39,886 bases of DNA from Verrucomicrobiales bacterium (lineage in GTDB: Bacteria; Verrucomicrobiota; Verrucomicrobiia; Limisphaerales; F1-12-MAGs170), in assembly GCA_005777315.1 (NCBI GenBank), contig SXMN01000241.1:1-39886 (forward strand), given 5' to 3'. Below the pieces are notes generated by a model. The model saw nothing but the letters and a program-made list of their open reading frames with translations. It did no database searches and was not told where the DNA came from. This document shows positions 21,256-39,886 of this stretch, piece after piece. The first letter of the stretch is position 1. Every line of letters begins with the position of its first letter. A program made the translations under genes and the position numbers.

Positions 21256-21626
21256 CGCGGAGTGCGGGCTGGAGTGATCGACTGAATCAGTCTGGCATTC
21301 CTCATATTTGATTCACCGGCGACGATAACGCCGTGAGGCAGTTCGACTTTTCCAGTTTGCCAACAGCGCATCCACAAGTGGCGGTGAACCTGACTCTCGG
21401 CCAGGAGCGCGGTTGTGTGCGCAGCACCAGCCGCAGCTGGTTTGGCATGAGTGCGAGCTATCGATACCTGCTGCGACCGGCTTTCAGCACAATCGCGCTC
21501 CACCGACAACCTGCGGATACACCGGTTTGCCAACCACAAACGAGAATCTGCTTGGCAGTGGTCGCGCGACTCCGTAACAGAAGAGTGCTCTTTGAAACCG
21601 GCGGGCTCAGGCCCGCAAAAAATCAC
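21256..21626 (+). other. Intergenic region upstream of the riboswitch
   Basis: There is no convincing gene: open frames are short and cysteine/arginine-rich with no family resemblance. Near its end, at 21601-21616, is a perfect hairpin GCGGGC-TCAG-GCCCGC followed by six A, which is not a terminator on the + strand. The promoter for the riboswitch transcript should lie here, but I could not fix it. Confidence 0.5.
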
Positions 21627-21771
21627 GATCAGATGTCAGGGAACCCCGTGAAAATCGGGGACGGTTGCGCCACTGTGACGGGTTACAGACTCCCAGGGCC
21701 ACTGGCCCCGAGAGCGGCTGGGAAGGCGGGAGAATGGTTCGAGACCCGGAAGTCAGGATACCGATCTGGTT
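21627..21771 (+). promoter_or_regulatory. Cobalamin (adenosylcobalamin-type) riboswitch
   Basis: The conserved core is directly readable in order: GGGAA, GTGAAAATCGGGGACGG, GCGCCACTGTGA, GCCACTGGC, GGGAAGGCGGGAG, then the B12 box AGTCAGGATACCGA. A closing P1 stem of eight pairs (including G-U) forms between 21627-21634 (GATCAGAT) and 21764-21771 (ATCTGGTT). It sits on the + strand about 280 bp before the PEP-CTERM protein gene, which is the first gene it can control. It should lower expression when B12 is plentiful, as for other members of the class. Confidence 0.93.
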
Positions 21772-22054
21772 GTGCTCGTCGCGGCTGAGTTCATGTGGTG
21801 CCAACTGCATGAATCTCGCAGCCGACTTCTCCGACAAAGAGAAGGATGAGGCCAGTCCCAGGCGCCTGTCGCGCGTGGGAATCGTTGATGACCTTCATTC
21901 TCGTTTTGCAGGAGTTTGAAGGTTTTTCTTTTTCCACTGCCATTACTTCCGAGTGGCGCGTGAAAGGCAGAATCCCTTCCAACTCCGCACTGGTCTCTCA
22001 GTTCCGCAAACCACTCACGGCCTTGGTGCCGTGGAGTAAATTGAAAGATCAGAA
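21772..22054 (+). promoter_or_regulatory. Riboswitch leader / expression platform region
   Basis: A long imperfect hairpin can be drawn between GTCGCGGCTGAGTTCATG (21778) and its near-complement ending at 21826. A smaller one follows at 21858-21880. A T-rich stretch at about 21921-21933 is not directly attached to a stem. No clear GGAGG precedes ATG 22055. Whether control is by termination or by translation cannot be decided by eye. Confidence 0.45.
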
Positions 22055-25204: not shown

Positions 25205-28200
25205 TTACTGGCCAAGTATTATTCGGTAGAATCTGAATTCGGTGGTCGGTGGAAGCAAATCCGTTTGAATTGAAACAGCGCTGGATGCGGTGATGGGAGT
25301 GCCGAGGTTGAGCCAGGACCCCAGATCGGTGGAATACTGAACGCGATACGACTGGCCGATTTGTGAAGTCCATTTGATTAAGATTGTCCCCGGCGTTGGA
25401 ACGCTGACGCCTACAATCTCAACGGAGGGCGCAGCACCGACTGAAACGTTGAATGTCTTGTCGTTGCTCAATGGGATTAGACTTTCGTCAGTCACACGAA
25501 CGGTGATGGTGAATGTTTGCGAGGCTTGAGCAACTGCGGGAGTCCATTGGAACTGGCCGCTGGACGGATCGATGGTCGCGCCACTCGGCACACCACCAAC
25601 GAGAGCGAAGGTCAGCTTTTGCGGTGGAAGATCGGCGTCGGTGGCTCGGGCGGTCAGTTTTAACAGACTCCCAACAGTGGCCGTCTGATTTGGGATCGGG
25701 TCCAGGCTCGGGGCGGTGTTGGCTTCTGTGACAGTGATGATGATGGTCTTCGCATCCGTCATGGGTGGAGCCCCGTCGTCGGTCACTCGAATGGTGATGG
25801 GATAGGTGCCTGGGCCATCCGCTTCGGTGGTTGTCCAGTTGAAGGTGAGTGTGGCGGGGTCCAGTTTGGCACCGGCGGGTGCTCCGGGATCAATGGTGTA
25901 AGTGAGATTTTGGGCTGGCACGTCTCGGTCTCCGGCGAGGACGAGGAAGCTCACTGTTTTCCCTTCAACCACGCGTTGATCCTTGAAACTTGCGAACACA
26001 GGCGGCGTGTTCAGCGCGCTGACAGTGACGAGAAAAGTCTCCGATGTGCTCAAGGGCGGATTGCCATTGTCGGTGACGCTGATGGTCACCGGAAAAACTC
26101 CAGGCCCTTGAGGCGAGGATGGCGTCCAAGAGAATGCCCCCGTTGATGGATTGATCTTGGTGCCTTCGGGTGAGCCAGCACCGAGGCTGAAAGTCAGCGT
26201 CTGAGTTGGAATGTCTGTGTCCTTGGCGACGGCGATGAACTCAAGAGTGCCCCCTTTGGCGACGGAGCGTGAGCCGATCGAAGTGAGCAAGGGAGGGGCA
26301 TTGCCCGCGACCACAGTGATACTGAAAGTGCGGGCGGCGTTTAGAGAAGGTGTTCCGTTGTCTGCTGCAACGACAGTAATGGAGTGCGCCTTTCCCGCTT
26401 GGGCGACAGTTGGGGTCCAGGAGAACACTCCCGTGCCAGGATTGATCGAGGCTCCAACCGGTGCCGCGTCGAGGCTGAAGGTGATGGCTTGAGCAGGAAC
26501 ATCCGTGTCTTTGGCCTCTGCAGTGAATGTCACGATGACGCCGGGAGCCACGGCACGATCACCAATGGCGGCGAGCGTCGGTGCCGCATTCACTTCGTTG
26601 ACTGTCACCGTGATCGTTTCGACATCCGACAAAGCAGGCGTGCCGTCATCCGTGACGCGAATGGTGATGTTGTAGGTTGCCGGGCCTTGCTGCTCCGTTG
26701 GAGTCCAGGTGAAGATCCCACTGCTGGCGTTGATAGTGGCTCCACCTGGTGCGCCTGCATCCAGAGTGAACTTCAAAACTTGCCCTGCGTCGGGCTCCTG
26801 TGCTGTCGCGGCGAACGTGAGGGGAGCGCCTTCGGCGATGGATTTGTTGCCAATGGCCGCGAGCACTGGTGGGTTGTTGTTGGCAACATTTCCAAAAATG
26901 TTTCGAGCGCGAGGCGTGGGACGAACCATCGACTGGAAAGGCGTGGTGTTTCCATCAGGCCAGCGTCCCTGGCTGACGTCATTGGATTGCGCCGCAAAAG
27001 CGACGGTGTCGACGAGAGTTCCTGCGGGATTGTAAAGCGCGATTCCTTCGCCAGTCTGGCTGAGTTTGAAGCTCGTGTGAAGATCAGCGGTTGCACCGTT
27101 CTGGCCCGGCTCACCATCTGCCCAAACGAGCAGATAGCCACCTGCGGGAATCGTGGTGCCATTGGGTATGATCCATTGCGCAGGATTGGACTGATCATCC
27201 GTCAAGGTGAACCCCGAGAGATCCACCGTGGCGTTGCCGCCATTGTAGAGCTCGAACCAGTCCTCGATGTCGTTGTCCGCCGGGTCAGTCAACGTGAGCG
27301 TGTTTGCCGCCATCCATTCATTGATGAAAACAACGACGGGTGGATAAGTGTTGTTGTTCGCCGCCCCAGGTGTGGCGGTGTAAAAGCGCTGGCGTTTGCC
27401 ACTGGTGCCGTCTGGAAACGCTCCGAGCGATCGATCCGCAGTCATCTGCTTGTAATTGAGATAGTCGATCACCTTGGTCTGCCCGTTGAACGGTCCCGCC
27501 AGAATGATTGAGCCATCCGCCGCTGCGATGCGGAAACTGGTGTGCAGTTCGGAGGCTGTGGATTCTGTCGGCTCGCCGTCGAGCCAGACAATGACTCGCT
27601 GTCCAGCGTTGATGGTGAAGCCGGCTGGAAAATTCCAACGCTGGAGATTTGCGTAATCGTCACTCAAGGAGTAACCCGACAGGCTGATGGGCGTTGTCCC
27701 GGAGTTGTAGAGTTCCACCCACGGATCGCGGTCTCCCATGCGGTCCACCGGCCCGGAGGCGTTGTTCGGCTGGACTTCATTGAGCCAGATTGTGGGGAAG
27801 GCAGGCAGGGAAGTTTTCACCGAGTTCGCCGCGCCCGGCGAGTAAGGTGCTCCGGTCGGAGCGCTGCCACCCGTGGTGGTGGTGGTATCGAGAGACAATC
27901 CGAAGACTACGTCACTGCTTCCGGCGTTGACTTGATGAACTTCGACCGCGATGACGTTGTCGCCTTGAAGGAGTGCGGAGCCATGCACTGTGAATGGACC
28001 TTCGTTTGCCGCGTCGCTGACGGTGCGCCCGGCGAACGTCGAATAAGTCACGTCACCGTCCGGCAATCCGATTCGATAGATTTCGGTGCCATTGAGGTAA
28101 ACGACCGCGCCGTCATCAAGGATCAGGTTAAGCGTGAGCGTGGTGCTGGCGGCATTGCCGGAGAAGTTGAAATGGTTTCGGAAATAATAAGTGGTCGGGC

Positions 28201-31200
28201 CAATCGTGAGTGCCGTGCTCTTCGTAGCCGGGAGGGCTGCCGATTCGACGTAAAGCAACGCCGGACCGGAACTCCAGCCGGCGTCATTGTAGGAGCGCTC
28301 TCGCCATGCGGTGCCGAGATCGTTGCCGGCCTGGTTGTATTTCCATGCGCTGGTCATGCCGATAGGGCTTTGAGTGACCACTGTTGGCGGGGTTCCGCCT
28401 CCAGCTCCTGACTGGGTGACGGCGCTCCAGTTGAGCACACGATTGTTGTCTTGCGCGGGGTCAATGAGCTGCAGCGAGGGGCCGAAGCCGTCGGCTGTGG
28501 CCGGCCAGGGTGCGGCGTTGTCATAAGTTACGGAGTCGATCAAGAGATCCAGTTCAGGTGTGGCTCCGGGTTTGACGAGCGTGAGAGTTTCTCCGCCGTT
28601 CTGAAGCTTGCCTTTGTAGATGCCGGCGATGGGAATCGAGGAGCCATACGTGGTCGCGAAAGTGGCGGTATCGTTGACAATGACGACAAATCCTCCGGGT
28701 TGAACGATGACGCCATCTGGGAACGTGAAATCCGCTCCATCCAGACGCCAGCCGGAGAGATCAAACGCCGTGGACAAGGATCGATTGTGGATCTCAACGA
28801 AGGATGCATCCGCCACCGTGGCGTTGTACATGATCTCGTTGATGACCAGGAAATCCTGCGGTTGCTCGGCCGCCCCGCTATAAGTGATCGAGACGGTTTT
28901 TGATGTGCCGGCAACGGGTCTTCCCTGGCTGTCGTAGCCTTGGATATTCAGCTTGTTCACGCCATTGCCAAGTGCGTAGGCCATCGACCAGGAAGTGGTC
29001 GTGGCCCAGGTGAGCGGGTAGCTGACGCCATTGATTTCGATGGTTTGAACGCCAACGGGCGCAGTGCCTGTGAGTGAGATGGAGTTCTTGTTGGTGGTGA
29101 AGTCTGCGCCGCCATTGATCGTGAGCGCGAAGTTCGCGGTGACTTTGGCGAGGTGGTTGGTGAGAATGTACTGACGGCGTGCTTCGATGTAGGATTTGAG
29201 TGCTGATGGACTCGCAACACTGATTCCGTTGGCCTGGAGAGCTGAATACTTAGCGTCCAGGATCGGGCCGATATTCGCGGCCAGCATGGGACCGTTTACA
29301 GCGTCATACATGGCGCGGAAATAGGCGCGCCGGAAAGGGGCGTGGTTCAGGAATCTCTGGATGGTGGGATCGTTGATCCCGCTGAACATGTCCGTCTGTG
29401 GACCATCGCTGCCGGAGCCGAGGACAAAATCGATGTCCCAGGCAAAAAGCTGCCAGCGACCGCCGTCGGGTTTGTAAGCGTACATGTTCTTGCCGCGACC
29501 GGTGCCGTAGGCGTCCCAGTTTCCTGCGATATGTTCGAGGCAAATGACACGCGCCCACTGTTCCACGTCCAATTGTGATTCGGTCTGCTGTGTGTAGGCG
29601 GTGGTGTTCTGAGTGTTGAGCGCATCCACCAGTTTGAAGAGATTTGTGTAGGCATTGGCGGAATCGGACACCGCGCGTTTGCGCCAGTTCCAGCGGTAAC
29701 GGGCGAGCTTCTTCACCCCTCCCGTCGTCGTGAAATTCTGGAGAGTGGCATCGACGTTGGATTGTTTGCTGTCGCCTGATGCGTCGAACTCAAACCAGTC
29801 TTCGATCTTGTGAAGGTCGCCGTTGTTGTTGTCGGGAAACCATTGATCGATGATGTCTGAGTTCGGCTGTTGAGAATCTTCGAAAATTCGAGCCCGCTGG
29901 CCGCCGTTTACATACATCCGGATGTGGCGGCGATAATTGTTCTGGGCCCCGAGTTGTCCGAGAATCCAGAAGGCCGCCTGTTCACGTTGGGCGGTGTCGT
30001 CGCTGTCCAGATTGCCCACGGTGGCAAGAACGAGATCATTTGCGCCGAGGAGCGGCTGGTCATCGGGGAACTGTGTGACGTAATCGCAATTGTTGCCGAT
30101 GGGGGAGTTGAAACCGGGCGTGTGCCAGGGACTGCCGCTGTAGAGGGTTCCGATGTTGTAAACGACGCGTTCGTTGTTGTAGATGAAGGTCGCATCAAGC
30201 GGCTTGTTGCTGTTCTTCTCACGCGTGGACCAGCGCGTCTGGGTGGCTTTGGTGAACCAGAGGTGATAGGTGCCGAAGGTGCCCGCGGGTTGGGGTTCGC
30301 CAACGCGGATCAGACATTCCCGAACCGGCGCATCGCTGGGGAAGAGAATCGTTGCGTTCGGGGAAGCGCCGTCTGTGGCTTTGATCGTGAAAGCCACCAT
30401 GCTTCCACTGCTTTGCCCTGGGATTGTTCCGCTGAAGAGTCCCGCGCCGTTATTTACCATGCCGACGGTCGTGATGTTGGTCGCGGGGTCGAGGCGATAG
30501 CTCAGAAGCAAGGTGGCGATGCCATCCGGATCATGGACGCGTGCCTTGACGGTGATCGATTGATTGGCGGATGGCAGCACGGGGCTGTGGGTGACATCAT
30601 AGATCGCAGGCCCGGCGTTTGAGGCATGGCGGCTGTTCCTTGCTCCGGGAGTTCCCAGGTTCGTTGCCGAAACAATGTTGCCGAAGGCTTCCAGCCAGTT
30701 TCCATGCAGACGAAGAAGGATCTCCGGATTTCCCTTCAGCCAGCGAACTCTCGCGCGCAACGTCGCGGTCTGACCCGAATTGAGTGAAGTGGTGAGCTGC
30801 GTGCGGACGCGATTGGCTCCGGTGTCGCCCCGGCCCGCCGCTCGAATGTGAAGTGATTTTCCGCTATTAAAGCCTTCAGTTGTTTCGAGCGACGAGGCGT
30901 CGTGTGTGCCTTGGAAAAACCAGCCGTCCGCGCCGGATTCGAGGGTCGAGTTTGCGATAAGGTTTTGTCCTCCGGCGGCAAACACTTCAATGTTATCCAC
31001 GAGGCATTCGCCTGGGCCTTGGAGGAATAGCTGGAGCGAATCGGCGGCGCCATTGCCGTTGTCCAGCACGCCGGTCCATTGCACTGTGGTCCAGGCGCTC
31101 TTTGACGATTCGTCGCTGTCCGCCCAGTTCGGAGCCAGGCGGTGGTTACTGTCAGGATCGATGAGTTCTAGGCTGCTGCCTCCTCCGTCCGACCAGTTGC

Positions 31201-33667
31201 CCCAGCGGCCGCCGGTTCCGTAGGTGACTTCATCGACGATAATATGAATCGTGTTTGTGACGAGAATTCCGTTGCTGTTGGTGCTGACCACCAGGTCCGG
31301 CATGTCCAGCCGGAGGCGTTCACCTTGACTGGACAGCCGGCCATCGAAGTCGCCGAGCGTGTTTGCACTGGTGAGGTTGGAATAGTTCGCGCGAAGGTGG
31401 AGCGCGTTTCGAGCAACGACGAGATGCCCGCCCGGCAACAGGACGGTGCTGGCGGGGAATTTGAAATCCACTCCATCCGTGAGACGCCAGCCGGACAGAT
31501 CGACCGCGCTCACGCTGCGGTTATGGAGTTCGACAAACTGGTCATCGTCATTTCCGGAAATCGGATTGTACATGACCTCGTTGATGACGATGGGGCGGAT
31601 CAGATGGGTGCCATTGGCAGCGCCGGGCGTTTTTGTTGAGAGCTCATGCAAATCCGGCGAGCCGTCTGGATAGCGTCCGGTGGAGACGCCGTTGTCCTGG
31701 CCTTTGAAGTGAATGGCATCGATGATTCGATCAAGGCCTGGACTCCGCAGATAAATCGTTTCCCCGGCGGCATTGAGGGAAAAGCCGAGTTGATTTTGGT
31801 TGAAGACAACAAAGCCCTTGGCGGGGATTGTTGTTCCAGAGGGTATCGTGAACTTGTTGACGCCAACATCGTCCGTCACGAAGCACCCGCCCAGAGTGAC
31901 AGGCTGTGCGCTGTAGTTGTAGAGTTCGATGTAATCGAGTTCGGGATCGTCCGTATGAGCGAGGAACTCATTGATGACCACCGTCCGGTATGGACTCGAC
32001 GAACTAGGTTCAGATGTGCCGGGAGATCCACCAATGAAGTTGCTGGCAGCCCATGCTCTTGGGTCTCTTTCACCATAAGAGGGGCGGACGAGGACCAGCG
32101 AATGCCCCGCTCCGTCAGCTGCCCTTGGAAAGGGCGGCTCGGTTTCGTATGTCGCCTCGATCAAAACGGCGCCGAGATGATTGCGAAGGCGGACGACGCC
32201 GGAGCTGTTCTTGAGACTCTTCTCGTAAGGTCCGAAGACGCCACCAATTCCATAAACGCTTTGGACATCAGCAGGAAGTTTGGCAACGACCAGGTAGCTT
32301 CGGGCTGAAATCTTCGTGCCTGGAGGGAACGTGAAATCGACTTCACCGGAGAGGCGAAAATTTGAGATGTCTTCGAAAAACGGCTGTGAATTGTAAATTT
32401 CGACGAACTCCACATCCTTGCCGTCGCTGCGTGCGGCGGGGTGGTACATGATTTCTGAAATGACGAGCCCGGTTCTTCGGCTGGAAGGACCGGGTGATTC
32501 CGGCCTGCCGTAGAGGTCGCCGACATCCAATGGTGTGAAGTCTATGGTGAAGCTGGCTTGGGAGTTCGGAGCGATGGTGTTGGGGATTGAGCCTCGATCC
32601 CGGACGCTGTTAATCGTGAGTGTGTAACTGACACCCACGGTCATGGGAGTTGTCGTCAGGACAACAGTGCGAGCATCGCTGTCCAGCACGGCGGAAAGCA
32701 CGCCTGCTCCATTGTTGAGTTGGAAATTTGACTTTTGTGTGGCGGTGCTGGCTTCGACCGCTTCGGAGAAGAGGATGCTGACGGTGCTGTTCCCGCCGAG
32801 ATTGGCCACGGAAACAATCGTTGGCGGCGACGTGTCACGGACGACGGCAAGGCTGGCGCTCGCACTGGTGACGCTTCCTTGCGGATTTGTGATGACGCAC
32901 AGGAAGCTGGCTCCGGTGTCCGCCAACGTCGCAACAGGCAGAATGTATGTGGACTGTGTGGCCCCGGGGATGGCAGCATTGTTTCTGCGCCATTGATAGG
33001 TGGCTCCAGTCGCGCGGCTCAATTGCACCGTGAATGCAGCCGGTGTTCCTTCGACAACGGTTAGATTCGAGGGTTGTTGGGTTATTTGCGGAGCCGACAG
33101 GCCATAGGCGGTAAGGCGGCTGCCGGGGATCGGTTCCTCCATGGTGCCGTTGGGGAGCTGCCAGCGCACCGCCAGGTTGTCACCACCGCCGCCCTCTTTC
33201 ATCAACGCTTCGATGTAATACTTGTGGCCTCCTGAAAGCGTGATGGCAGCGGATTTTTGCTCCGGATACTTTCCCCACTCCCGGGAGCTGGTCCATCCGG
33301 GAACAGTCGCTATCGAAATTTTGTTCTGCGGCTGATCGGTTGTGCTGAGAAACAACTGGCCTGCGTCATCGCTCGCGATCCAAAAAGTGTAATTGCCGGT
33401 CGTGGGTGCCTGGATCAAGGCGCGGAGGCGCTGGCCGTAATTCTCATCCACATCGGTTGGAGCTTCAAATGTCGAGAGGATGCTTTCCGCCGACGGGTTC
33501 GAGGGAAACGCGGCGCTGCCGGTCAGATCGCTGATGGCTACGCCGCCAATGCCGGTATAAACCTCTCTTAGAACTCCGGACGTTTGCGCTTGCGTCTGAC
33601 CAGCGAGGAAACCTGAAGCGACACAGATGGAAAGTAATGTACTCGGAAGCGAAAAGAGCTTACGCAT
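25205..33667 (-). CDS. Giant multidomain exoprotein: PA14, Ig, lamin-tail domains, CotH kinase-like domain, Ig repeats
   Basis: The 2820-residue secreted protein starts at ATG 33667 with signal peptide MRKLFSLPSTLLSICVASG. Domains in order are as follows. PA14-like, ~35-190 (YTFWIASDDAGQLFLS, KYYIEALMKEGGGGDNLAV). Ig-like, ~200-280 (ITQQPSNLTVVEGTPAAF). SbsA-type Ig, ~285-385. Lamin-tail domains at ~410, ~560 and ~690 (VISEIMYHP, VINEFLAH, VINEVMYNP). A CotH kinase-like domain, ~1150-1520, with HIAGNWDAYG, GKNMYAY and WQLFAWDIDF. Further lamin-tail domains at ~1610, ~1960 and ~2115. Five putative Ig repeats, ~2260-2740 (IG..S.AEG and FTWTP). A C-terminal module ends FRFYRIILG. CotH proteins can be protein kinases of spore coats; in Verrucomicrobiota such giants are probably surface or matrix proteins. 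It converges with the prepilin-like gene, with a 217-bp gap. Confidence 0.9.
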   Translation of the reverse strand: MRKLFSLPSTLLSICVASGFLAGQTQAQTSGVLREVYTGIGGVAISDLTGSAAFPSNPSAESILSTFEAPTDVDENYGQRLRALIQAPTTGNYTFWIASDDAGQLFLSTTDQPQNKISIATVPGWTSSREWGKYPEQKSAAITLSGGHKYYIEALMKEGGGGDNLAVRWQLPNGTMEEPIPGSRLTAYGLSAPQITQQPSNLTVVEGTPAAFTVQLSRATGATYQWRRNNAAIPGATQSTYILPVATLADTGASFLCVITNPQGSVTSASASLAVVRDTSPPTIVSVANLGGNSTVSILFSEAVEASTATQKSNFQLNNGAGVLSAVLDSDARTVVLTTTPMTVGVSYTLTINSVRDRGSIPNTIAPNSQASFTIDFTPLDVGDLYGRPESPGPSSRRTGLVISEIMYHPAARSDGKDVEFVEIYNSQPFFEDISNFRLSGEVDFTFPPGTKISARSYLVVAKLPADVQSVYGIGGVFGPYEKSLKNSSGVVRLRNHLGAVLIEATYETEPPFPRAADGAGHSLVLVRPSYGERDPRAWAASNFIGGSPGTSEPSSSSPYRTVVINEFLAHTDDPELDYIELYNYSAQPVTLGGCFVTDDVGVNKFTIPSGTTIPAKGFVVFNQNQLGFSLNAAGETIYLRSPGLDRIIDAIHFKGQDNGVSTGRYPDGSPDLHELSTKTPGAANGTHLIRPIVINEVMYNPISGNDDDQFVELHNRSVSAVDLSGWRLTDGVDFKFPASTVLLPGGHLVVARNALHLRANYSNLTSANTLGDFDGRLSSQGERLRLDMPDLVVSTNSNGILVTNTIHIIVDEVTYGTGGRWGNWSDGGGSSLELIDPDSNHRLAPNWADSDESSKSAWTTVQWTGVLDNGNGAADSLQLFLQGPGECLVDNIEVFAAGGQNLIANSTLESGADGWFFQGTHDASSLETTEGFNSGKSLHIRAAGRGDTGANRVRTQLTTSLNSGQTATLRARVRWLKGNPEILLRLHGNWLEAFGNIVSATNLGTPGARNSRHASNAGPAIYDVTHSPVLPSANQSITVKARVHDPDGIATLLLSYRLDPATNITTVGMVNNGAGLFSGTIPGQSSGSMVAFTIKATDGASPNATILFPSDAPVRECLIRVGEPQPAGTFGTYHLWFTKATQTRWSTREKNSNKPLDATFIYNNERVVYNIGTLYSGSPWHTPGFNSPIGNNCDYVTQFPDDQPLLGANDLVLATVGNLDSDDTAQREQAAFWILGQLGAQNNYRRHIRMYVNGGQRARIFEDSQQPNSDIIDQWFPDNNNGDLHKIEDWFEFDASGDSKQSNVDATLQNFTTTGGVKKLARYRWNWRKRAVSDSANAYTNLFKLVDALNTQNTTAYTQQTESQLDVEQWARVICLEHIAGNWDAYGTGRGKNMYAYKPDGGRWQLFAWDIDFVLGSGSDGPQTDMFSGINDPTIQRFLNHAPFRRAYFRAMYDAVNGPMLAANIGPILDAKYSALQANGISVASPSALKSYIEARRQYILTNHLAKVTANFALTINGGADFTTNKNSISLTGTAPVGVQTIEINGVSYPLTWATTTSWSMAYALGNGVNKLNIQGYDSQGRPVAGTSKTVSITYSGAAEQPQDFLVINEIMYNATVADASFVEIHNRSLSTAFDLSGWRLDGADFTFPDGVIVQPGGFVVIVNDTATFATTYGSSIPIAGIYKGKLQNGGETLTLVKPGATPELDLLIDSVTYDNAAPWPATADGFGPSLQLIDPAQDNNRVLNWSAVTQSGAGGGTPPTVVTQSPIGMTSAWKYNQAGNDLGTAWRERSYNDAGWSSGPALLYVESAALPATKSTALTIGPTTYYFRNHFNFSGNAASTTLTLNLILDDGAVVYLNGTEIYRIGLPDGDVTYSTFAGRTVSDAANEGPFTVHGSALLQGDNVIAVEVHQVNAGSSDVVFGLSLDTTTTTGGSAPTGAPYSPGAANSVKTSLPAFPTIWLNEVQPNNASGPVDRMGDRDPWVELYNSGTTPISLSGYSLSDDYANLQRWNFPAGFTINAGQRVIVWLDGEPTESTASELHTSFRIAAADGSIILAGPFNGQTKVIDYLNYKQMTADRSLGAFPDGTSGKRQRFYTATPGAANNNTYPPVVVFINEWMAANTLTLTDPADNDIEDWFELYNGGNATVDLSGFTLTDDQSNPAQWIIPNGTTIPAGGYLLVWADGEPGQNGATADLHTSFKLSQTGEGIALYNPAGTLVDTVAFAAQSNDVSQGRWPDGNTTPFQSMVRPTPRARNIFGNVANNNPPVLAAIGNKSIAEGAPLTFAATAQEPDAGQVLKFTLDAGAPGGATINASSGIFTWTPTEQQGPATYNITIRVTDDGTPALSDVETITVTVNEVNAAPTLAAIGDRAVAPGVIVTFTAEAKDTDVPAQAITFSLDAAPVGASINPGTGVFSWTPTVAQAGKAHSITVVAADNGTPSLNAARTFSITVVAGNAPPLLTSIGSRSVAKGGTLEFIAVAKDTDIPTQTLTFSLGAGSPEGTKINPSTGAFSWTPSSPQGPGVFPVTISVTDNGNPPLSTSETFLVTVSALNTPPVFASFKDQRVVEGKTVSFLVLAGDRDVPAQNLTYTIDPGAPAGAKLDPATLTFNWTTTEADGPGTYPITIRVTDDGAPPMTDAKTIIITVTEANTAPSLDPIPNQTATVGSLLKLTARATDADLPPQKLTFALVGGVPSGATIDPSSGQFQWTPAVAQASQTFTITVRVTDESLIPLSNDKTFNVSVGAAPSVEIVGVSVPTPGTILIKWTSQIGQSYRVQYSTDLGSWLNLGTPITASSAVSIQTDLLPPTTEFRFYRIILGQ

Positions 33668-33881
33668 GGCGTGAAGTTTAGCAGGTTCCAAGCCACGGAA
33701 CTGGAGGCGGTAACAACGCGATGACTTGCGCCGATGCTAGAGCAGGAAAGGACACGTGTGCAGTTCCGGGACACTTACGACTGAATTTGAGCCAGTCCTT
33801 GAGAAATTTCCGCGGCTTGGCAACCAGATTTCGGTGCCGTGAACACAGGCATGAAGAAGCTATCTTCGGTTTATGTGTGAG

Positions 33882-34892
33882 GGGTCAGTTCTTATGATTG
33901 ATTAGTCACGAGAGAGACCTACGCTATCCGTCGTGGCACGCAAACTGAGACTGGAATATCCCGGAGCGATTTATCACATCATCAATCGTGGAGATCGGCG
34001 AGAAGCGATCTTTCGGGATGACGGCGACCGGCAACGGTTTGTGGAGACGCTCGGGGAAACGTGCGTCCGGAGCGGATGGGATGTGCATGCATATTGTCTG
34101 ATGCCCAATCATTTTCATCTGGTGGTGGAGACGCCGCAACCGACGCTGGTGGTCGGGATGCAATGGTTTCTCGGAACCTACACCGGACGTTTCAACCAAC
34201 GGCACAAGCTCTTTGGGCACTTGTTCAGCGGCCGCTACAAGTCGCTGATCGTCGATGGTTCGGGCAAGGGGTACCTGCGAATCGTCTGCGATTACGTTCA
34301 TCTGAACCCGGCGCGAGCCAGGCTGCTCACGCCTGCGCAGGCGTTGCGGGAATACCAGTGGAGCAGTTGGCCGGATTACCTGCGGGCACCGGGCAAGAGA
34401 CCGGAATGGTTGCGCGTGGATCGGGTGTTGGGAGAGGCGGGGATTTCCAAAGACAGCGCGGCGAGGCGGCAGGAGCTGGAGAGGTGGATCGAAGCGCGGC
34501 GAGGGGCGGAGGAAGACGTGGATTACAAACCGATCCGGCGGGGCTGGTTTTTCGGGGAAAAGGTGTTGAAGCAGGAATTGCTGGGCCAGATGAGTGAGCG
34601 TATGGGGCCGGAGCATTACGGAGAGGAACGGCGGGAGAGCCAGGCGGAAAAGGCGGAAAGGATGGTGGGAGAGGAATTGCGGCAGCGGAATTGGGTGGAG
34701 GCGACACTTGGGGAACGCAAGAAAGGCGACCGCGAGAAGGTGAAGATCGCCTTACGATTGAGGAGCGAGACAATGGTGACCGTGGCATGGATTGCGCAAC
34801 GACTACAGATGGGTAGTGTGGCCAACGTGAATACGCTTCTGTACCACTGGCGGCGGAACAATAGGCAAATATCTGTTCATAAGAACTGACCC
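33882..34892 (+). mobile_element. RAYT-carrying mobile unit bounded by perfect 16-bp inverted repeats
   Basis: GGGTCAGTTCTTATGA at 33882-33897 has its exact reverse complement, TCATAAGAACTGACCC, at 34877-34892. They enclose one transposase gene, whose last codons and stop lie in the right repeat. The whole unit is 1011 bp. No target-site duplication is obvious. The ends are simple inverted repeats and not the subterminal hairpins of classical IS200. Confidence 0.75.
33933..34889 (+). CDS. REP-associated tyrosine transposase (RAYT, Y1_Tnp/IS200-like)
   Basis: The 318-residue single-strand DNA transposase is of the HUH superfamily. The N-terminal Y1 domain has RKLRLEYPGAIYHIINRGDRRE, the HUH motif PNHFHLVVET (H60, H62) and a candidate catalytic Tyr in GTYTGRFNQRHKLFGHLFSG (Y83), followed by GRYKSLIVD and CDYVHLNPARA, all typical of RAYTs. 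The C-terminal ~130 residues are basic and helical, ending in a helix-turn-helix-like TMVTVAWIAQRLQMGSVANVNTLLYHW. Such proteins mobilise palindromic REP elements. The start could be GTG 33933, which gives the conserved N-terminus. The gene fills the unit bounded by 16-bp inverted repeats. Confidence 0.9.
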   Translation: MARKLRLEYPGAIYHIINRGDRREAIFRDDGDRQRFVETLGETCVRSGWDVHAYCLMPNHFHLVVETPQPTLVVGMQWFLGTYTGRFNQRHKLFGHLFSGRYKSLIVDGSGKGYLRIVCDYVHLNPARARLLTPAQALREYQWSSWPDYLRAPGKRPEWLRVDRVLGEAGISKDSAARRQELERWIEARRGAEEDVDYKPIRRGWFFGEKVLKQELLGQMSERMGPEHYGEERRESQAEKAERMVGEELRQRNWVEATLGERKKGDREKVKIALRLRSETMVTVAWIAQRLQMGSVANVNTLLYHWRRNNRQISVHKN

Positions 34893-35070
34893 GTTTTCGA
34901 TCCCGTATTCCGCCGCCAATCGGCCAAGGAAGTTCTCGACAAACCACCTGCGGGAATCAAACGTCTTTCGAGCCGCAATAAGTCACGTCAGATGGGACGT
35001 GGAATAACTGTTTGGCGAACTTGCACACCTGCAGATCGATTGAGGAAACGATGAAAGGACTAGTGTTATC

Positions 35071-35619
35071 ATGAACTCACGCAGAAGATTTCTTCAACAC
35101 GGCGGCCTTGTGGCCGCATCCATTTTCACCCAGCCGTCCATCGGCTTCTCCCAGGGGAAGGAAGAATTTGGAGGTATTGTGTCCAACGACGAGGATGGAG
35201 AAGTCCTGAGGTTGCGCGATGGAACGGCTATTGTAAGAATCAAAATATCGAAGCTTAAAGGCTCGAACAGCATGTCGTTTCTTTCCGAGTCATTCAAGCC
35301 TGGGGACGCTTTGCCTGTGCATAAGCACCTCAATGAAGACGAGTTCATATTTATGCACAGAGGTTCTGGATTGTTGACCCTCGGTGACAAACAATACCCA
35401 GTCAAGGAGGGTGCCGTCACTCTGGTGCCAAAAGGCGTCTGGCATGGGCTGCAGAACACTGGAACTGAGAATATAGAAATGCGTTTTGGGTACACGCCCG
35501 CGGGCTTTGAGGGATTCTTTCGGGAAGTCGGCTTTCCGGTCGGAGAGCCTTTCGTCAGAAGGACCATGGAACAGAGGCGGGCGATAGCCAAGAAATGGGG
35601 AATGGTTTACCGTGATTGA
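35071..35619 (+). CDS. Tat-exported cupin domain protein
   Basis: The 182-residue protein has a twin-arginine leader (MNSRRRFLQHGGLVAASIF, cut near GFSQG). The cupin barrel follows: PGDALPVHKHLNEDEFIFMHRGSG supplies the His-x-His...Glu metal site, and KEGAVTLVPKGVWHGLQNTG supplies the second motif with its His. Cupins include isomerases, dioxygenases and binding proteins, so the reaction is unknown. The gene is more AT-rich than the exoprotein genes nearby. It is followed by the first attC-like palindrome (35633-35758), so it may itself be a captured cassette. No attC-like site is seen before it. Confidence 0.83.
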   Translation: MNSRRRFLQHGGLVAASIFTQPSIGFSQGKEEFGGIVSNDEDGEVLRLRDGTAIVRIKISKLKGSNSMSFLSESFKPGDALPVHKHLNEDEFIFMHRGSGLLTLGDKQYPVKEGAVTLVPKGVWHGLQNTGTENIEMRFGYTPAGFEGFFREVGFPVGEPFVRRTMEQRRAIAKKWGMVYRD

Positions 35620-35632
35620 CCACGGTGGAGTC

Positions 35633-35758
35633 GCCGAACCAGGGCGCAGCAGCGAATCGCCGCTCCGCTGGGCAGTTGGACGGTTCGGGTAATTTGGCAG
35701 CGCCTCTTGCAGCCGACCGGGCGTTTCCGGCGGCGGTCGCTGATCTTGGTCGTTCGTC
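35633..35758 (+). repeat. attC-like palindrome 1
   Basis: Outer boxes are GCCGAAC (35633-35639) and GTTCGTC (35752-35758). Inner boxes are CAGCGAA (35650-35656) and GTCGCTG (35736-35742), with CGCCGC/GGCGGCGG inside. The order R''-L''...L'-R' and the size (126 bp) fit integron attC sites. The R box has C where the consensus GTTRRRY wants a purine. Confidence 0.55.
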
Positions 35759-35773
35759 AACACCAAGGCCAAC

Positions 35774-36211
35774 GTGAACAATCGAGACAAACGTAGTATC
35801 TTGTTTTTCGCCTTAGGGCTGTCTGTTGCAGGTGTCGGTGTGGCCACGGATTCATACTTCTTGACCTCCGCCGGGCTGTTCGCAATCGCTGTGACCATTC
35901 GATACCGCAAAAGGCCTCCATTCTGGGATTATCTGGCCTTTCTTGTCCTTGCCCTTGTAATCGTAGCACTCGTTCCTCCGAGTTCGCCTCTGATAGGCGC
36001 CATTCCTCTGATGCTTTCCTACGTCCTCGACTACATCGATGAGCAGAGACAGAAGCGCGTGGCGCATCCCGCGGCAGCGTTGGTGGCAGGCGCCACACAT
36101 GCCGAGCCAGAATGGCGGCCCCGAGAAGCCATCTGGCAATTCGGAAGTCACAGAGGAGCCGCAATTGGTGAGCTGAATCGTTCGACGCGAGCAAACTATG
36201 AACATACGTGA
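35774..36211 (+). CDS. Hypothetical membrane protein in putative cassette
   Basis: The 145-residue protein is not recognised. Hydrophobic segments at about residues 9-28 (ILFFALGLSVAGVGVATDSY), 29-42 and 52-85 (YLAFLVLALVIVALVP; LIGAIPLMLSYVL) suggest three or four membrane helices. These are followed by a hydrophilic tail with DYIDEQRQKR. The gene begins 16 bp after attC-like palindrome 1 and overlaps the next gene by 14 bp. It may be an integron-type gene cassette. No family assignment can be made. Confidence 0.65.
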   Translation: MNNRDKRSILFFALGLSVAGVGVATDSYFLTSAGLFAIAVTIRYRKRPPFWDYLAFLVLALVIVALVPPSSPLIGAIPLMLSYVLDYIDEQRQKRVAHPAAALVAGATHAEPEWRPREAIWQFGSHRGAAIGELNRSTRANYEHT

Positions 36212-36797
36212 AGATCTTCGACGCTACTTGATTGAGACCGCCCAGGTCACGCAAACACGCCGTTACAAGTGGCTAACCGCGATTTATTTGATTTTGTTGC
36301 TTGCGAGCGTCTTGCATGTTTTTCAGCCCGAGTATTGGCAACTGCGCCGTCTGCGCGGACACATTGCGGATATCAGCCCGCAGTGGGATGCTTTCAAACG
36401 CGCGAATCCAGGTTTTGAAGCCGTTGAACTCTTCCCAGGGTATGACGAGGGACATGGTGTGAGGTTCGCAGCGAAAGGCAAGGTTCCCTGGGATGTAGAT
36501 TTGAAACAGCTTGCCGAATTCATGTGGAGCACCAAGCCGCCATTTGCGGTGGACATCTTCAAAGTGACTACCGACTACTCAAATGCACCTCGCGTCCGGA
36601 GCCCGCGCACAAAGAAAATGACGGCCATAACGCCAGATGGAAGGCGCATTGAAGTTGATGTGCCTGTGGAGCCATATCCCGGCACGGACTTGGATACCGC
36701 ACGATCCAAGGCCGAAACAGGGAACCCAGCGAACGGGAGCCAGCCGACTCGCTCAGAGACGAATTCAACGTCCCCGGCGGCTGGCTCCCGTCGCTGA
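36198..36797 (+). CDS. Hypothetical single-pass membrane protein in putative cassette
   Basis: The 199-residue protein has a short cytoplasmic N-terminus, one hydrophobic helix at about residues 27-43 (LTAIYLILLLASVLHVF) and a soluble domain (QWDAFKRANPGFEAVELFPGYD, VPWDVDLKQLAEFMWS). No family is recognised. The last ~28 residues, from about AETGNP on, are encoded by attC-like palindrome 2, and the TGA stop lies in its inner right box. The natural tail is therefore recombination-site sequence, as often seen for integron cassette genes. It overlaps the previous gene by 14 bp, so the two are probably translated together. Confidence 0.68.
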   Translation: MNIREDLRRYLIETAQVTQTRRYKWLTAIYLILLLASVLHVFQPEYWQLRRLRGHIADISPQWDAFKRANPGFEAVELFPGYDEGHGVRFAAKGKVPWDVDLKQLAEFMWSTKPPFAVDIFKVTTDYSNAPRVRSPRTKKMTAITPDGRRIEVDVPVEPYPGTDLDTARSKAETGNPANGSQPTRSETNSTSPAAGSRR

Positions 36798-36812
36798 CAT
36801 CAATCGTTCGGC
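36711..36812 (+). repeat. attC-like palindrome 2
   Basis: Outer boxes are GCCGAAAC (36711) and GTTCGGC (36806-36812). Inner arms are CAGCGAACGGGAGCCAGCCG against its complement CGGCTGGCTCCCGTCGCTG, perfect except for one extra A in the left arm. That single unpaired base is typical of attC L'' boxes. The 102-bp site is about 90% identical to palindrome 3 over a 74-bp core. Confidence 0.6.
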
Positions 36813-36827
36813 GCTATCGTAGGCAAT

Positions 36828-37076
36828 GTGATCACGCAATGCCCAAACTGTAAGTCTCAGGAGATCGTGGGAGGAGAACTTCGCACCGACCAACCCGGTC
36901 ACGATGTGGGGAGTCCTGCATTTTACGTAAAGACTACGAGAAGCAAGTTCTTCTGGTCGTCTGAGCCATGTGTATATCCAGACAAGTGCGCGACCATTTG
37001 CCTGAATTGTGGGTTGCTCTGGACCCATGTGGATTCCGAGAAAGCGAAAGAGCTGCACCAAAAACAGGGATCATAG
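36828..37076 (+). CDS. Small zinc-ribbon-like hypothetical protein in putative cassette
   Basis: The 82-residue protein starts at GTG 36828 (MITQCPNCKSQ). CPNC near the N-terminus and CLNCG near residue 58 form a likely four-Cys zinc ribbon, with further Cys residues in PCVYPDKCATI. The function is unknown; such proteins may bind nucleic acid or protein. The gene starts 15 bp after palindrome 2 and ends 11 bp before palindrome 3, exactly the compact gene-plus-site form of an integron cassette. Confidence 0.7.
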   Translation: MITQCPNCKSQEIVGGELRTDQPGHDVGSPAFYVKTTRSKFFWSSEPCVYPDKCATICLNCGLLWTHVDSEKAKELHQKQGS

Positions 37077-37087
37077 AACATGAGGAT

Positions 37088-37189
37088 GCCGAACCAGTGC
37101 GCTCCAGCGAACGGGAGCAAGCCGATTCGCTTGGAGACTAATTCAACGTCCTCGGCGGCTGGCTCCCGTCGCTGACCTTGGCGATTGAG
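37088..37189 (+). repeat. attC-like palindrome 3 (right end degenerate)
   Basis: The left boxes GCCGAAC (37088-37094) and CAGCGAA (37105-37111) and the inner right box GTCGCTG (37168-37174) are present, with the same extra A in the left arm. The outer right box is GATTGAG instead of GTTCGGC, so this site may be worn or mark the end of the array. Confidence 0.5.
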
Positions 37190-37205
37190 TTTGAAGGCCG
37201 ACATT

Positions 37206-37820
37206 GTGAGCACAGCAGACAGTAAACAGATCAGCGGCCCGCATCGATACTCCGGTCTGGTGGCGGCGAATGTAGTGCTCTTGCTTTGGGCGGTTGGGCT
37301 TTTCGTTTCCCTCCAGTTCCCTCGCAGCGCAAGTTATTTGGGATGCAGCCGGGACAATCTAATTAACCTGCGGGTCTACACACTTGTAACTTACGCACTC
37401 TACCCGTTCAGCCTCGATCACCTTGTTGGGTTGGCCGTTTCACTTCTTTTATCTGTGTATTTTATTGGTAACCTGCTTACCCCGCAAAGAATCTGGCTAC
37501 TCATTACTGGGTCAACGGTGCTTGGGGCAGTGTTGTTCTGTGGAATGGTCAAGCCGCCAGCGTTACTCGTCGGAGGCGGAATGGTGACATGGGGCCTGGT
37601 GGGTGCCGTGTTGGCATTGGGGCTCACAAATTGGCGACATCTAGGAATACTTCGGCGTGTTTATTTGGTTTTGGTCACTCTGTTTACCATAAGTCTAATT
37701 TTTTCTTTCAGCGCCTTAACTTACGCACAGTTGCTCGTGGCCACAGGAGCTTTCACCACGGTGCTCTTTTGGCATCGCAACGATAATTCAACCCGCAAAC
37801 ATCTCCCTCTGCTCTCGTGA
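37206..37820 (+). CDS. Rhomboid-like multi-pass membrane protein without catalytic Ser
   Basis: The protein has about 204 residues and six likely membrane helices. It starts at GTG 37206 (MSTADSKQ). A TTG at 37185 is in frame but lies in palindrome 3. The layout VTYALYPFSLDHLVGLAVSLL, then LLITGSTVLGAVLF, then LVGGGMVTWGLVGAVLALG follows the order of rhomboid proteases, where helix 4 normally carries GxSGA. Here that motif reads GGGMV, so the catalytic Ser is missing and no clear catalytic His is seen. It may be a pseudo-rhomboid, or the likeness may be accidental. The gene is AT-richer than its surroundings. Confidence 0.6.
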   Translation: MSTADSKQISGPHRYSGLVAANVVLLLWAVGLFVSLQFPRSASYLGCSRDNLINLRVYTLVTYALYPFSLDHLVGLAVSLLLSVYFIGNLLTPQRIWLLITGSTVLGAVLFCGMVKPPALLVGGGMVTWGLVGAVLALGLTNWRHLGILRRVYLVLVTLFTISLIFSFSALTYAQLLVATGAFTTVLFWHRNDNSTRKHLPLLS

Positions 37821-37945
37821 CGGGTGTGACCAGGCGCGCAGGGATCGGGGCGGCAATTGCGCGCGAACTGGGTCGCGCCGGGCCAGGCCCTTCGTCACGT
37901 TCTTCCGCCATTACGACGCGCAGCAGTCCTGGTGCGTCGAGCCGG
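37808..37945 (+). pseudogene. Remnant of a short-chain dehydrogenase/reductase gene
   Basis: In one frame 37808-37880 reads SALVTGVTRRAGIGAAIARE and on to LGRAG, the Rossmann start of SDR enzymes (TGxxxxxGIG). After a frameshift it continues FVTFFRHYDAQQSW, as expected downstream in the same family. The rest of the gene is gone. The remnant overlaps the end of the rhomboid-like gene and runs up to the antitoxin gene, so it marks a recombination scar. Confidence 0.6.
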
Positions 37946-37992
37946 ATGGAATGCTCCCTTGCCGAGGGCGGCAGCCCGGCTACAATTCATCC

Positions 37993-38208
37993 ATGAGCAT
38001 CGCCGAACTACGCAAATTGCCGCCCATTGAGAAGATGAAGATCATCGAGACTCTTTGGGGCGACCTGGCGGCCGATGAAGAATCGTTTGAAAGTCCGGCG
38101 TGGCATGGGACCGAGTTGAGGAAGACCGAGGCGGACTTTGCGGCAGGCCGAGTGGAAGTCATGGATTGGGAAGACGCGAAAAAGCAGTTGCGAAAGCAGA
38201 AGGAATGA
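37993..38208 (+). CDS. Addiction-module antitoxin (TIGR02574-like)
   Basis: The 71-residue acidic protein begins MSIAELRKLPPIEKMKIIETLW and continues LAADEESFESPAWHGTEL and GRVEVMDWEDAKKQLR, the pattern of the putative addiction module component family that neutralises ParE/RelE toxins. It overlaps the toxin gene by an ATGA junction, so the two are translationally coupled, antitoxin first. ATG 37993 is preferred over 37951, whose extra residues come from the SDR remnant. Confidence 0.85.
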   Translation: MSIAELRKLPPIEKMKIIETLWGDLAADEESFESPAWHGTELRKTEADFAAGRVEVMDWEDAKKQLRKQKE

Positions 38209-38504
38209 GAGTCCGGATACTGCGTTCGGCTTTTGACGACCTGGCTGCCGGTCGTCGTTTCTATGATCAACAGGAACCGGGTGTAGGCGATTACTTCCTC
38301 AACAGCCTGTTTTCTGAAATTGATTCCTTGACGCTTTATGGCGGAATCCACCGCATTCAGTTCGGACATCATCGGCTTCTTGCAAGGCGATTTCCCTATG
38401 CGGTTTATTATCGAATCATCGCAAAGGAAGCCGTCGTTTTTCGAGTGATCGATTGCCGCAGAGATCCAAGACGGATTCGAGCGGCTCTTGAAGAAAATGG
38501 CTGA
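38205..38504 (+). CDS. ParE/RelE-superfamily toxin
   Basis: The 99-residue basic protein starts at ATG 38205, four bases before the antitoxin stop ends. The sequence RILRSAFDDLAAGRRFYDQQ, GVGDYFLNSLFSEIDSL and the C-terminal RRFPYAVYYRIIAKEAVVFRVIDCRRDPRRI follow the ParE/RelE fold (helix hairpin followed by beta sheet with the final R-x-P). Whether it cuts mRNA or poisons gyrase cannot be told. The pair lies just downstream of the cassette-like genes. TA pairs are frequent stabilisers of such arrays. Confidence 0.87.
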   Translation: MRVRILRSAFDDLAAGRRFYDQQEPGVGDYFLNSLFSEIDSLTLYGGIHRIQFGHHRLLARRFPYAVYYRIIAKEAVVFRVIDCRRDPRRIRAALEENG

Positions 38505-39620: not shown

Positions 39621-39654
39621 AATGTTGAATCGGGCTGACGCTCCATGAACTACA

Positions 39655-39750
39655 GGTAGGGCTGGCTGTCCTCAGCCCGCCGCGAACGGCGGAAGGATCA
39701 CCGCATCCCCTCCCAACGCCACGGCGCGGTGAGGACACCGCCGCCCTACC
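39655..39750. repeat. Palindromic intergenic repeat
   Basis: GGTAGGGC at 39655 and GCCCTACC ending at 39750 are complementary ends. TGTCCTCA and TGAGGACA inside, plus CCGCCGCG/ACGGCGG elements, give an imperfect ~96-bp hairpin. Confidence 0.7.
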
Positions 39751-39829
39751 AGGCGCACGGGTTGGTCGCATTGGTTCGCGTCCAGAATCCTGGGGTTTTC
39801 CCCTCTCCGTGAACCTGACCTGGGAGCGC

Positions 39830-39886
39830 TGGCGTCTCGCCGGCGTGTTCCCAATTTCGCCACAGCAACTCGCCGGCGAGACGCCA
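39830..39886. repeat. Inverted repeat at the window end
   Basis: TGGCGTCTCGCCGGCG (39830-39845) and its exact reverse complement CGCCGGCGAGACGCCA (39871-39886) form 16-bp arms around a 25-bp loop. It may extend past the window. Confidence 0.75.

Follow-up and report, generated by a model that had tools for sequence, protein, structure and literature searches.

A probable integron cassette array without an adjoining integrase in a Limisphaerales-type genome

The window, which is the whole of contig C228 (39,886 bp) of a 5.66-Mb draft genome in 367 contigs that is 82% complete, very probably carries a CALIN: about five head-to-tail integron cassettes with no adjoining integrase, in a genome of Limisphaerales/Pedosphaera type. 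An earlier note on the same DNA had proposed such a cassette array, and its main points were all borne out, by a complete integrase with attC sites of the same family on another contig (C66), by same-strand clustering of such sites across the order, by a rule linking the boxes at the two ends of a cassette, and by flanks that part at GTT. The cassettes would have been inserted by an IntI tyrosine recombinase acting on folded bottom-strand attC hairpins and joining them to an attI-like site at G^TT; the breakpoint can be seen here, and the chemistry is carried over from IntI biology.

Integrons have already been reported in Verrucomicrobiota (PMC8618304), and CALIN is a standard category in IntegronFinder (PMC9024848). 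For this lineage the find appears ordinary, its only mildly new point being an attI-like flank without an integrase that is repeated in the genome. Eleven taxa have an attC model in PMC8352920, with Verrucomicrobia not among them. A single verrucomicrobial genome would here document a CALIN, a matching integrase and a paralogous boundary, and the repeated flank offers a testable case for the origin of CALINs.

Table 1. Features of the putative array, in window coordinates. E-values of attC sites are from the covariance model and are rough (short calibration), which leaves the score gap unaffected.
Feature	Positions	Strand	Details
Left module, attI-like platform	34894-35012 (119 bp)	+	Crossover G^TT at 35010-35012
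Cassette 0	35011-35639	+	Start TTTGGC, end box GCCGAAC; start/end match 6/7
Cupin gene in cassette 0	35071-35619	+	Cupin_2, E 1.1e-15
attC W0	35633-35758	+	45.5 bits, E 2.9e-10; R'' GCCGAAC, L'' CAGCGAA, L' GTCGCTG, R' GTTCGTC
Cassette 1 ORF (ORF1)	35774-36211	+	Small membrane-protein-like orphan; reads through W1
attC W1, decayed	36101-36186	+	11.5 bits, at the expected place; R'' GCCGAGC, R' GTTCGAC
Cassette 2 ORF (ORF2)	36198-36797	+	Orphan; C-terminus encoded by W2
attC W2	36711-36812	+	29.1 bits, E 9.2e-6; R'' GCCGAAAC, R' GTTCGGC
Cassette 3 ORF (ORF3)	36828-37076	+	82 aa; weak zinc-ribbon similarity
attC W3	37088-37190	+	33.0 bits, E 8.1e-7; right box decayed to GATTGAG
Cassette 4 ORF (ORF4)	37206-37820	+	Alternative start 37185; attC missing
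Short-chain dehydrogenase gene remnant, right flank	37809-37948	+	90% over 141 nt to C310; 85% to G001:C209

attC sites and cassettes in the window

Structure was judged by a covariance model, because single-strand folding alone discriminated weakly: against shuffles, W2 stood out (z -5.3), W0 was weak (z -1.85), and W1 and W3 were not separable by folding. The model was built solely from the six attC sites on C66, with none from the window, and the window was scanned with filters off. The three palindromes described in the earlier note (W0, W2 and W3) are present and score far above chance (Table 1), the best unrelated match in the window reaching 11.8 bits. By structure and sequence together all three are attC sites, where an array takes at least two, and they stand head to tail in one orientation with same-strand genes between them. 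A 14-mer pattern scan allowing two mismatches gave 70 matches versus 57 in the reversed control. The sole Rfam match in the window was a cobalamin riboswitch (21614-21783, 79 bits).

Alignment with other sites gives the layout R''-spacer-L''-loop-L'-spacer-R', and L'' contains an additional A. The inner box first described, CAGCGAA/GTCGCTG, is indeed common to all, but the extra A, credited to two of the sites, is present in three. The outer box GCCGAAC/GTTCG(G/T)C is likewise shared, though imperfectly: the left box of W2 holds an extra A, and the right box of W3 has lost its GTT (Table 1). The W2/W3 core, put at about 90% identity over 74 bp, measures 73 nt at 92%. What the list of three sites missed was a decayed fourth, W1, which we take to be a real attC because it is placed between ORF1 and ORF2 and matches attC sites in two other genomes: an attC of G013 shows 78% identity across 73 nt (E 5e-11), and in G114 a site ahead of an ORF2 homologue shows 80% across 60 nt. 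At the latter locus (L175, G114:C8) the W1-like attC is followed by a stop-broken ORF2 homologue (65% over 58 aa), the same attC-gene junction as W1/ORF2 in another genome. ORF2 homologues also adjoin attC in G067, G208 and G183.

The span first assigned to the array, 35633-37189, left out the cupin cassette, which runs from 35010, and the last cassette gene, which ends at 37820. The cassette genes had been described as short, AT-richer orphans starting 15-17 bp after a site, and ORF1 and ORF3 do begin 15-16 bp past the preceding site; GC content is 51-55% in the cassette genes versus 57.6% for the window. Family profile searches placed ORF1 in no family above cut-off, and the rhomboid-like similarity of ORF4 is weak (Rhomboid, E 3.4e-4, 21.3 bits, below the cut-off of 22.6). 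The points that count against reading the locus as a cassette array include the lack of a nearby intI, the draft state of the genome bin, the imperfect outer boxes of W2 and W3 and the start/end match of only 5/7 in each of cassettes 1 and 2, which are bounded by decayed sites; cassette 3 matches at 7/7 (start GTTCGGC, end GCCGAAC). Given the decay of W1, the missing GTT of W3 and the absence of an attC from the final cassette, the array is probably largely frozen today.

Box rule, site family and integrases

If these units are cassettes, each should begin with a box complementary to the one at which it ends. This was so at all seven positions in 75 of 102 neighbouring attC pairs from the genome itself and its relatives, with shuffled ends giving a mean of 17 and a maximum of 30 (10,000 shuffles), a comparison that ignores kinship among loci and serves as a guide, not as an exact probability. 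Across the same 102 pairs, a cassette's own end beat the partner box of the same site in 64 and lost to it in 14. Cassettes starting with GTTC also ended with GTTC in 29 of 36 cases.

The textbook R box, GTTRRRY, has a purine at position 4, where W0 (GTTCGTC) and W2 (GTTCGGC) have C. Among 106 GTT boxes the fourth base was A in 76, C in 22 and G in 8. A larger set of 173, in which the C-rich subtype of W2 and W3 is over-represented, had A in 97, C in 56 and G in 20; both samples were picked by similarity and are non-random. GTTCGGC was the second commonest box. Judged from these sequences, a C at this position is off the textbook consensus and ordinary in the clade. The idea of an unusual attC class is therefore only weakly right: the base does depart from GTTRRRY, but it is common in the clade and cassettes that have it follow the same start/end rule. 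A fourth-base C is normal in this group and inherited with the cassette, and searches insisting on GTTRRRY would miss at least a fifth of the boxes. A literature search on GTTCGGC core sites found no paper; judged by their titles, the records returned appear to be surveys of clinical resistance.

The attC family was detected in 46 of 58 sampled genomes, the window's own included; 19 of the 58 have a strong intI. Of 293 genomes of the order, 67 contain the W2/W3 subtype, with identities of up to 92% outside its own genome. Twenty-nine loci of relatives carrying it were inspected, of which 22 had more same-strand attC within about 1.5 kb, five had no further attC and two were missed by the model. 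The subtype (36711-37190 in the window; L187-L215) is strikingly conserved across families of the order, loop included, more than expected of attC loops, and this conservation may mark recent cassette exchange.

No integrase had been seen with the array, which is right for the window: there was no TIGR02249 match on C228, and neither the 34 kb left of the array nor the 2 kb right of it contained an intI, as befits a CALIN. The array is thus not a complete integron, but the genome does hold an intI, on contig C66. This integron integrase is complete (TIGR02249, 385.6 bits, cut-off 265; 411.5 bits for the whole protein, with TIGR02249 its best NCBIfam match), and the list of its relatives among named records is headed by Verrucomicrobia, including Limisphaerales and Pedosphaera, at up to 62% identity. 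Past the C66 attI, the rest of the contig carries six attC sites, whose inner box is that of the window sites. Genome-wide, the model matched six sites on C66, two each on C134, C72, C57, C154 and C228, and one on C235, the count for C228 being two since W2 surfaces only in the unfiltered scan; sites on any one contig were all on one strand. Besides the intact integrase there are at least two broken ones in this genome: decayed fragments lie beside attC on C134 (L064, 4277-4642) and C154 (L027, 227-376).

Flanks and origin of the array

The left module has a counterpart of 85% identity on contig C310 of the same genome (G000), and the alignment stops at GTT, with unrelated DNA beyond: identity per ten bases runs 8, 9, 10, 9 up to GTT and then 3, 5, 4, 3. 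Compared with this differently occupied paralogous locus, the array begins at G^TT, and because the alignment ends there the cupin gene is best read as the first cassette. A third copy, on G000:C280, is 80% identical and diverges at GT; the 207 bp that remain of its contig contain no attC. The end of the module (AATAACTG^TT) resembles the attI of C66 (CTTAACTG^TT) and of C134 (CTTAAATG^TT), and among 37 relatives five carry the motif TAA[CA]TGTT upstream of intI, with none on the other strand. A search of 320 genomes of the order returned only 19-34 bp matches to the module outside its own genome; in the congener (G001) it aligned at 73% over 70 nt only.

On the right, ORF4 runs into the dehydrogenase remnant. 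The dehydrogenase gene continues on C310, past a decayed attC, and on G001:C209 the remnant again lies downstream of an attC array. C228, C310 and G001:C209 have parts of both flanks in common and differ in the cassettes between them and in the upstream genes. The attC of cassette 4 and the first dehydrogenase codons would have been lost in one deletion. A stretch near 37829 with the look of half an attC proved to be coding sequence of the dehydrogenase remnant.

Other elements surround the locus. A RAYT/IS200-like (Y1) transposase gene (33933-34889) lies within an element (33882-34892) that is bounded by a perfect 16-bp inverted repeat (GGGTCAGTTCTTATGA), abuts the left module at 34892 and has similar copies on G000:C136 (85%), C112 (72%) and G001:C196 (86%). 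A minus-strand ORF of 2828 aa with repeated domains (25205-33691) adjoins the array region. Immediately to the right of the array is a probable toxin-antitoxin pair (37951-38504), in which the antitoxin matches Unstab_antitox (E 6e-14) and the toxin is weakly ParE-like. Two dispersed repeats follow, both with many copies in the genome and its congener: one of about 100 bp (39643-39754), and one with an internal inverted repeat (TGGCGTCTCGCCGGCGTGTT; 39803-39886) that is copied on both strands and inside which the contig terminates.

With a RAYT-type gene just upstream, the palindromic repeats might be taken for a REP/BIME or MITE-like family, spread by a transposase and with genes between them by chance, and the presence of the W2/W3 subtype in 67 of 293 genomes, at identities of up to 92%, could be read the same way. 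Such a family is hard to reconcile with sites that keep to one strand per contig and alternate with ORFs, with further same-strand attC at 22 of the 29 subtype loci, with the box rule, or with a family that adjoins intI. The earlier note had named scattered copies in both orientations as the sign of a REP/MITE family; we looked for copies so scattered, solitary or paired, and did not find them, and we rejected this explanation as extremely unlikely.

For the CALIN that we prefer, several mechanisms of origin have been proposed (PMC8618304). It seems reasonably likely that the locus was once a complete integron that was copied or rearranged and whose own intI was deleted, perhaps by rearrangement or RAYT-type insertion. 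The attI-like end of the module, the motif found upstream of intI in relatives and the RAYT-like element abutting the module all point this way, and since decayed intI fragments adjoin attC on C134 and C154, intI loss does happen in this genome. What speaks against it is that no convincing intI remnant lies beside C228, C310 or C280. The same absence would suit delivery in trans, a more tentative possibility in which the integrase encoded elsewhere in the genome inserted the cassettes at a left module that would be a spare attI-like, or a secondary (attG), site and never had a local intI. The origins already proposed for CALINs include off-target insertion by a distant IntI (PMC8618304), and the three module copies in one genome part at the same GT(T) with different genes upstream. 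However, the C280 copy has no attC beyond it up to the contig end, the shared dehydrogenase flank suggests duplication of the whole locus instead of independent insertions, and the decayed integrases count here too. That the 119-bp module is a dispersed attI-like landing platform which lacks its own integrase and depends on a single one acting in trans appears improbable; if true, a single enzyme would run several arrays per genome, at dedicated platforms and not at random secondary sites.

Comparison with known systems

Like a CALIN as defined in IntegronFinder (PMC9024848), the window array has two or more attC sites on one strand, with small genes in between and no intI nearby; it differs in beginning at an attI-like module of which the genome has further copies and in the frequent C at the fourth base. 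REP/BIME elements with a RAYT resemble it in that palindromic repeats lie close to a gene for a Y1-type transposase, whereas the window sites share one orientation, are clustered, alternate with genes and obey the start/end rule of cassettes. The attC sites of class 1 integrons (RYYYAAC...GTTRRRY; PMC3053210) have the same R''-L''-L'-R' order, the extra base in L'' and the GTT crossover, but in the window sites the fourth R' base is often C and the spacers, of 9-10 nt, fall toward the upper end of the length range. With the C66 integron the array shares the attC family, the start/end box rule and a similar attI end; the C66 integron has its intI and intact sites, whereas the window array is without an intI and includes decayed sites.
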